A stretch of 53,500 bases of DNA from Candidatus Saccharimonadota bacterium (GTDB lineage Bacteria > Patescibacteriota > Saccharimonadia > Saccharimonadales > Saccharimonadaceae). Both the position numbers and the translations under genes were made by a program. The notes under the pieces are model-generated. The model saw nothing but the letters and a program-made list of their open reading frames with translations, was not told where the DNA came from and did no database searches. This document shows, in pieces, positions 51,654 through 53,500 of the stretch. Each line of letters opens with the position of its first letter. The first letter of the stretch is position 1. The stretch spans positions 109,453 through 162,952 of the forward strand of contig JAFRBH010000011.1 in the NCBI GenBank assembly GCA_017404955.1, in the 5' to 3' direction.

Positions 51654-51853
51654 ATATATTATATTGTAGCACAAAAATCTGTAGCAAATTAGCCAAAACC
51701 AATTTCCAACCTTAGCGCTTGCGCTTTTTCGAAAAGTAATGTAAAATAGCCATAAGAATAAACGTAACAGGGAGCGTTTGTCAGCCAAAGCTAGCAATTG
51801 GGCCGGCAAAATTGCCAAAAGTTGCGGAATAAATGCATTTATCGGAGGTCAAA
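51654..51853. other. Intergenic leader of the giant surface protein gene
   Basis: The minus-strand kinase promoter is at the left edge. TAAAAT at 51742-51747 is a weak -10 for the plus gene, giving a leader of about 100 bases. It contains GGCAA/TTGCC and CAATT/AATTG inverted repeats near 51791-51812 and GGAGGT just before the ATG. No reading frame with signals is seen in it. Confidence 0.4.
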
Positions 51854-53500
51854 ATGTCCAAATCAAAAATCAAAGTTTCAAGGAGCGCTATTCTCGCTTC
51901 AATCTTCGTCATGGGGGGGGGGTCACTTTTCCTAGCTCTTAGCAACCCCGGCAGCGTTTCAGCTGTTGACACCTCGGTTACTTCACCAGGCTCTCAAATC
52001 TCAGTCACCCTGCCAGACATCATCGCACTCAGGGTCATGAATAAACAAAACACACAAGAAATCACTAGTCTCGCTCTAGACTTGATGCCTACTCCAAACG
52101 GCGCTTTCACCAAAGACAGTATGCTAGCAGAGGTCTCCACCTCTAATGTCAGCGGTTACAAACTCTACGTTTCTACCATCGGACAAGATCACGAAGATAA
52201 TTATACCAACGCACTCATCAATCAAGATAGTAGTATCGCTCCAAGTGTTGGCACTATCCCAACTTTGCCACAAAACGTTTCCGTCACAGAGGCGGCTTAC
52301 AGAGCCTCGGGCTCTCCTTATCGTGGAACTTGGGGATACAGCACTAACGGCCTTACCATCACTCCAGGCAGTACTGAGGCTGACCCACCTACTATTACTG
52401 AAGTAACAGATACTAGTGCAATCACTTATAGCTTTTTCCCAGTTCAGGGCGATAGTGCTATGCTAAAATCTACAGCCGTGTCTGTATCTAAAGAGCTCAC
52501 TCCGGTTACTGTTGGTATCAACGCTACCAGCTCGGTCTCTGCCGGTACTTACGCCAATATCGTAGAATACACCGCCACTGCCAATCCAGCACCTACTGAT
52601 TACACTATCGATTTTGATGCCAATGTCACTATCGAAAACATGCCAAATAAGATTGTCATTTCTTCACTTTCTCCAACTCAAGATGTCGTTTTGCCATCTA
52701 CCGCACCGACTAGAGCTGGCTTTGCCTTCAAGGGCTGGAATACCAGTGCTGACGGCACCGGTACCATGTATCAGCCAGGTGATACCGTCCATCTCGAGGC
52801 TGATGACCAGGATCCTAGCGCTTCCAATATTACCCTCTATGCTATCTGGGGTAGCCCAGCCTTCTGGGGTATGACTTACATGCAAGAGATGCGAAGCGAC
52901 ACCTGCCAAGAACTCACCACCCCAGCAAGGACCGCCACCCAGTACGATGTGGACGGTTCTCACGAGGGCGATAATACCTACATCCCGCAGCGTACCCTTT
53001 ACGACTGGCGTGGCGCTAACGGTGCTGGAAACAGCAGCAACAAAGTAGCTCCAGATTCCGCTAACGCTAAAAGCTATACAGTAAGGAAACTTGCCGATGG
53101 CAACTGTTGGATGACAGAGAATTTACAGATTCCACTTTCTGCTGGTACTACCATTGAGGCTTCCTACAACTCCACCCCTGCTGCCTACTCCTTTACCCCG
53201 ACCTCTTGTGGTAGCAACGGTGCCTGTTCGATGAACGGCAATACTGTGGCTAGTGGCGCATACTACTACTCTTGGTACGCTGCTACCGCCGAGACTGGTA
53301 CCAGTAGCGATATCAATGTGGATACTTCTGCCTCTATCTGCCCAATTGGTTGGAGACTGCCAGCAAACTATACTATAGATTCCACCAAGTCTTATGGTTC
53401 ACTCACTAACGCCTATAACCTCACTTCCGGTGGTGCTAACAATTCCCAGAACCACGTCTCTGAACTAGAATCATCCCCACTTAATTTCGCGCGTTCCGGC
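51854..53500 (+). CDS. Giant surface protein with InlB-type repeat and FISUMP domain, 3' end outside window
   Basis: 549 codons are visible and the frame stays open to the window end. Signal peptide about 1-37 (MSKSKIKVSRSAILAS ... GSVSAVD). Residues about 250-335 match a Listeria-Bacteroides (InlB B) repeat (RAGFAFKGWNTSADGTG, then LYAIWG). From about 375 a FISUMP domain begins (YTVRKLADGNCWMTENLQ). Such proteins are exported adhesins. GGAGGT precedes ATG. Codons 20-23 contain ten consecutive G (51913-51922); this count keeps the frame open, and a change by one would stop translation early. Confidence 0.85.
   Translation, partial: MSKSKIKVSRSAILASIFVMGGGSLFLALSNPGSVSAVDTSVTSPGSQISVTLPDIIALRVMNKQNTQEITSLALDLMPTPNGAFTKDSMLAEVSTSNVSGYKLYVSTIGQDHEDNYTNALINQDSSIAPSVGTIPTLPQNVSVTEAAYRASGSPYRGTWGYSTNGLTITPGSTEADPPTITEVTDTSAITYSFFPVQGDSAMLKSTAVSVSKELTPVTVGINATSSVSAGTYANIVEYTATANPAPTDYTIDFDANVTIENMPNKIVISSLSPTQDVVLPSTAPTRAGFAFKGWNTSADGTGTMYQPGDTVHLEADDQDPSASNITLYAIWGSPAFWGMTYMQEMRSDTCQELTTPARTATQYDVDGSHEGDNTYIPQRTLYDWRGANGAGNSSNKVAPDSANAKSYTVRKLADGNCWMTENLQIPLSAGTTIEASYNSTPAAYSFTPTSCGSNGACSMNGNTVASGAYYYSWYAATAETGTSSDINVDTSASICPIGWRLPANYTIDSTKSYGSLTNAYNLTSGGANNSQNHVSELESSPLNFARSG

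Follow-up and report, generated by a model that had tools for sequence, protein, structure and literature searches.

The window, i.e., the whole stretch of 53,500 nucleotides that was analyzed, ends within a gene for a predicted surface protein that carries a run of ten G in its signal-peptide codons (Table 1). Direct reading and a pattern search both placed the run, with AT directly before it at positions 51911–51912, where the initial annotation had located it; the surrounding signal peptide was judged by inspection. ATG 51854, with GGAGG upstream, is the best start for the gene, and from there translation proceeds without a stop to the window end, which bears out the claimed frame of at least 549 codons. 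The tract forms the codons of MGGG, residues 20–23 of MSKSKIKVSRSAILASIFVMGGGSLFLALSNPGSVSA. It had also been claimed that nine or eleven G would break the frame, and in silico substitution with 8, 9, 11, or 12 G indeed gave a stop after 26–29 codons.

Table 1. Features of the window gene and the five long G tracts of the source genome. Positions without a contig name refer to the window, which ends with contig C5.
Feature	Position	Strand	Description
G10 tract (C5)	51913..51922	+	In signal-peptide codons of the window gene; in frame (ON) as assembled; direct reading, length substitution
Surface-protein gene, first 549 codons	51854..53500	+	Exits window and contig; InlB-type repeat and FISUMP-like domain
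Shine-Dalgarno GGAGG	51844..51848	+	5 nt upstream of ATG 51854; direct reading
Predicted signal peptide codons, MSKSKIKVSRSAILASIFVMGGGSLFLALSNPGSVSA	51854..51964	+	Translation judged by inspection
G9 tract	C12:438-446		Directly after MSKNSY; in frame; paralog, N-terminal part 56% identical to window protein
G10 tract	C6:83-92		Same start region as the C12 paralog; frame lost, with a stop after 15 codons
G12 tract	C4:38770-38781		In 21-nt spacer, TTGACA to TACACT; precedes gene of 459-aa secreted protein
C9 on coding strand	C8:17818-17826		In 18-nt spacer, TTGACA to TATTAT; precedes gene of 422-aa secreted protein

Domain searches upheld one part of the original description of the product as a FISUMP/InlB-repeat protein. 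The Listeria-Bacteroides (InlB-type) repeat exceeds the Pfam cut-off, with a concordant result in NCBIfam. In contrast, the Fib_succ_major match of the protein, whose gene is cut by the contig end, reaches 28.1 bits against a Pfam gathering cut-off of 33.9, and its FISUMP score in NCBIfam is 25.3 against 41.65 bits. Because both scores fall below the cut-offs, the protein is FISUMP-like rather than a member of the FISUMP (Fib_succ_major) family. The repeat, together with the signal peptide seen by inspection, suggests that the product is a surface molecule. Its relatives are found in ruminant-gut Candidatus Saccharibacteria, among them Ca. Nanosyncoccus alces, which bears out the initial annotation in taking the source for a Saccharibacterium. 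The G tract is absent from the closest homologs (46–48% identical), whose signal peptides cannot be aligned in this region; judging from these sequences, the tract is not conserved at the window locus across the closest homologs.

The source genome (G000) is assembled in 13 contigs totaling 718 kb. The last 141 nt of C5 are identical to the end of C1, and an overlap of exactly 141 nt is also present in two further pairs of contig ends. Such ends point to a short-read de Bruijn assembly with k = 141; the type of assembler is inferred. Joining C5 and C1 gives a protein of 606 amino acids with the C-terminus GFNVRCVAQ. Provided that the overlap reflects a genuine join, the gene would comprise about 606 codons. 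The earlier label of a “giant” adhesin is unsupported and probably wrong. Most contig breaks in this genome lie inside surface genes of the FISUMP/InlB type, i.e., at both ends of C1 and at ends of C2, C3, C5, C6, C7, C9, C11, C12, and C13. This family is multi-copy and mosaic in G000, and the assembly loses the ends of its genes.

Pattern searches of the whole genome returned only five G runs of eight or more, with lengths of 9, 9, 10, 10, and 12; the exact counts were 18 for G6, two for G7, none for G8, two for G9, two for G10, and one for G12. A dinucleotide model predicts 0.46 runs of at least nine G against the five observed (P about 1e-4), and extrapolating the decay of the genome’s own counts (G6 = 18, G7 = 2, G8 = 0) predicts about 0.03. 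The G10 tract is therefore beyond chance. The distribution of run lengths appears two-humped, as would be expected if long tracts are maintained. All five long runs occupy positions typical of contingency loci: three are in FISUMP-type surface genes, within the codons of the signal peptide or N-terminus, and two lie between the −35 and −10 hexamers of predicted promoters. Among the 20 G6 and G7 runs, promoter spacers account for none and signal peptides for about one. At L276 (G000:C2:13797-13804), a G6 run lies in what looks like a signal peptide (IVLAVLLGGGLMPKTSYA) and may represent a nascent or decayed switch.

The initial annotation had pointed to paralogous FISUMP genes as a place to look for further tracts. 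Two paralogs, on C12 and C6, carry one, a third holds an interrupted version, and the others have none. The shared start region of the C12 and C6 copies differs by a single G, with G9 in frame and G10 out of frame, so that this one genome seems to show both an ON and an OFF copy. In the third paralog, on C3, MSKSSYGGYLLKRF is encoded with GGGGGA; the tract is interrupted with Gly-Gly kept at the same place, and this is presumably a stable version. The promoters predicted upstream of the C4 and C8 genes, assigned from sequence alone, match the consensus as TTGACA-21-TACACT and TTGACA-18-TATTAT. By inspection, both encoded proteins have a C-terminal TPNSG or APDSG followed by a hydrophobic stretch and basic residues, a layout that resembles a sortase anchor. 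Homologs of the C4 protein were sought for a promoter comparison, but were weak in the genus (best 36% over part of the protein) and not useful.

Long G tracts recur across the genus. Runs of at least nine G were present in 82 of 147 genomes, and reading about 130 of them revealed the same two designs, i.e., coding tracts and promoter-spacer tracts. The pattern TTGAC-N(6-18)-GGGGGGG-TANAAT matched 35 sites in 25 of 174 genus genomes, compared to none for the reversed control pattern; in a phylum sample, it matched 14 sites in 12 of 380 genomes, and the mirror pattern again matched none. Spacers between −35 and −10 at the collected sites measured 13–21 nt, with up to 24 permitted, a range that fits what promoters would require. 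The tract directly adjoins the −10 hexamer at most genus sites, with the C8 promoter being an exception. Orthologous promoters differ in their tracts, with G8 and G9 at L201 and L202, and G11 and G14 at L226 and L205. A pattern for coding tracts, AATG-N3..33-G9, did not clearly outnumber its reversed control in the genus, since start codons lie behind promoter tracts and one long run can be counted several times; it served for locus finding only.

Further features were seen at individual loci. Tract promoters from different genomes (L068, L071, L093, L205, and L226) have a sequence in common, approximately AAGCATAAAGGTTATACA, which directly follows the −10 hexamer and precedes the start codon; it may be a conserved 5′ leader or a regulator site. 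The promoter-spacer design is sporadic in other families of the phylum (G332, G334, G411, G503, and G535; loci L261-L264 and L269-L271). At one contig end (G024:C6:13-58), interrupted runs of the G20 type probably reflect a sequencing artefact and call for caution with counts of long G runs.

Where domains are recognizable, the products behind the tracts are FISUMP, InlB-type repeat, DUF285, and LRR surface proteins, with some cytoplasmic exceptions; at least two promoter-tract genes code for non-secreted products, e.g., a GNAT acetyltransferase. Scoring of hydrophobic N-termini did not discriminate (23 of 41 promoter-tract genes compared to 23 of 45 window ORFs). Given this null result and the cytoplasmic products, we dropped the proposal that all targets are secreted. 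At L098 and L074 and at L094 and L196, the genes behind the spacer tracts belong to non-secreted families, one of GNAT acetyltransferases and one marked by the motif DPEMVQPNNYAFYF; such genes suggest switches beyond the surface.

We also compared frame states and lengths among copies. Of 23 clean coding tracts, i.e., those with a Shine-Dalgarno sequence, a start, and a hydrophobic N-terminus, eight were in frame (ON) and 15 out of frame (OFF), and the downstream frames of the OFF copies stay open for hundreds of codons. Tract length was unequal in nine of 13 near-identical pairs from different strains (at least 94% identity over at least 90 nt; the pairs are not all independent), with eight gap columns in 2345 nt of flanking sequence. 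In one ortholog pair, between G044 and Ca. N. alces, 613 aligned nucleotides contain 11 mismatches and a single gap, which lies in the tract (G9 compared to G8). About a dozen genes in G118, G147, and G128 (L215, L225, L239-L247, and L252) share the start, tract, and signal-peptide region ahead of different bodies. The 5′ switch region, from the Shine-Dalgarno sequence through the start and tract to the signal peptide, may be exchanged between paralogs as a cassette, although this is a weak suggestion; the sharing within G118 is suggestive, against a high baseline of shuffled identity.

Mismatch repair genes were sought with domain searches. None of 170 genomes of the genus had a match to MutS_V, and none of 60 had the MutL domain; each search was positive in 11 of 14 control genomes. 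Both proteins have been reported absent from Saccharibacteria (PMC8406219), and in N. meningitidis mutation of mutS raises porA switching (PMC3639595).

A contingency or phase-variable locus is defined by high-frequency reversible switching (PMC11868660). All of its sequence-level features appear to be present here: a tract of unstable length (G10, with lengths of 9–12 in the genome), a position where expression would be altered, copies that diverge in length beside conserved flanks, which is indirect evidence, and a predicted surface product. The G10 tract is thus very probably a slipped-strand phase-variation switch, as had been proposed at the outset; the four other tracts at switch positions in the same genome, the ON/OFF paralog pair, and the recurrence across the genus all support that reading, which withstood each check applied here. 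The absence of the tract from the closest homologs of the window protein and the non-secreted products of at least two promoter-tract genes count against it. During replication, the tract would frequently grow or shrink by one G, since a long G homopolymer is copied in a cell without MutS/MutL mismatch repair. Lengths equal to 1 modulo 3, such as G10, would hold the adhesin-type gene in frame, and the remaining lengths would truncate it inside the signal peptide and yield no surface protein. Three of the five switches in the genome would act on translation and two on transcription, with the tract setting the −35/−10 spacing. Each would govern a different secreted or surface protein, leaving the population mixed in surface types. 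We infer frequent slippage in living populations, expression that depends on frame and spacing, and a role of the tract-gene proteins in attachment to the host bacterium.

Several other explanations were weighed against a slipped-strand switch. Without mismatch repair, G runs could lengthen by mutation bias alone, with the OFF copies being decaying pseudogenes and no switch under selection. The absence of MutS and MutL is compatible with such a neutral hotspot, as are the nearest homologs without a tract and the 15 of 23 coding tracts out of frame, which equal the 1:2 ratio expected for random frames. However, mutation bias should leave long tracts as scattered as the G6 and G7 runs, whereas all five sit at signal-peptide or promoter-spacer sites; nor would it yield a promoter architecture found 35 times against zero for the reversed control. 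The downstream frames of the OFF copies also stay open over hundreds of codons, and we consider this explanation unlikely. Transcriptional or ribosomal frameshifting at the tract, giving a fixed product fraction whatever the DNA length, would suit a run so early in the gene, and long homopolymers can promote transcriptional slippage. A slippery site nevertheless leaves unexplained the promoter-spacer tracts, which lie upstream of the transcript, and the interrupted paralog on C3, and is accordingly quite improbable.

The initial annotation had named homopolymer sequencing error as the main alternative. Homopolymers are error-prone, several tracts lie close to contig ends, and draft genomes contain long G runs that are likely artefacts, such as the G20 runs of G024. 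Yet the 141-nt overlaps fit a short-read de Bruijn assembly, where the consensus is seldom wrong at G10, and sequencing or assembly error would not explain why runs exist at such sites and recur in many independent genomes. Given also that OFF copies make up two thirds of the clean coding tracts and that length differences recur across genomes, we regard error as very improbable. Signal peptides tolerate glycine and one paralog keeps Gly-Gly at the same place, as would suit a plain Gly-Gly-Gly that happens to use GGG codons; since only 7% of Gly codons in the window are GGG, runs of the same kind occur untranslated in promoters, and tracts of G10 and longer surpass codon needs, we give this explanation almost no credence.

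On/off switching by poly-G tracts is well known in Neisseria and Campylobacter, and the tract of the neisserial pilC gene likewise lies in the signal-peptide region. Like the coding tracts described here, pilC of N. gonorrhoeae and N. meningitidis has a long G tract in its reading frame (G 9–20 in a phasome survey; PMC5953494), where frameshifts turn an adhesion-related surface protein ON or OFF (PMC5320596); unlike pilC, the tract studied here lies in an unrelated FISUMP/InlB-repeat type of protein and in an organism without MutS/MutL. The predicted C4 and C8 promoters, and dozens in the genus, have the layout of neisserial porA and fetA, where the −35/−10 spacing changes with the length of an intervening G or C tract; porA with 11G, 10G, and 9G shows graded expression (PMC3639595). 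They differ from these genes in their unrelated target proteins and in that the tract adjoins the −10 hexamer at most genus sites. The small genome of C. jejuni likewise bears multiple poly-G/C tracts in genes linked to the surface, and NCTC11168 has 29 poly-G/C loci with tracts of at least seven (PMC4965091); the present genomes hold fewer tracts each, and their targets resemble adhesins, not glycan enzymes. Localized hypervariation in a Candidate Phyla Radiation genome has been described for a repeat gene of Gracilibacterium BD1-5, in a study that cites the phase-variation and slipped-strand literature (PMC6851277); in contrast to the present tracts, that gene has 9-mer coding repeats that alter the protein sequence and no homopolymer ON/OFF switch. 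This was the nearest report in the openly licensed literature, where we found none of such switches in Saccharibacteria or Patescibacteria, which leaves novelty unproven. The kind of switch is thus known, but apparently unreported in the phylum of the Saccharibacteria.

Taken together, these sequences suggest that this ruminant-gut genus probably owns a phasome, i.e., several poly-G switches in each genome that act independently and include both the frame and the promoter-spacer types, with adhesin-like targets and no mismatch repair. This would extend simple-sequence phase variation to the phylum and link it to the known absence of MutS and MutL. OFF copies in Saccharibacteria would be prone to mis-annotation as pseudogenes. 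Saccharibacteria live on the surface of other bacteria, and ON/OFF switches that can be recognized in sequence name candidate host-binding genes, which bears on how these episymbionts choose and retain a host; through the tracts, the question of host choice could be tested from existing metagenome reads. If the switch reading is true, each population would combine several surface types, and this mixture could determine the host bacterium to which cells bind.
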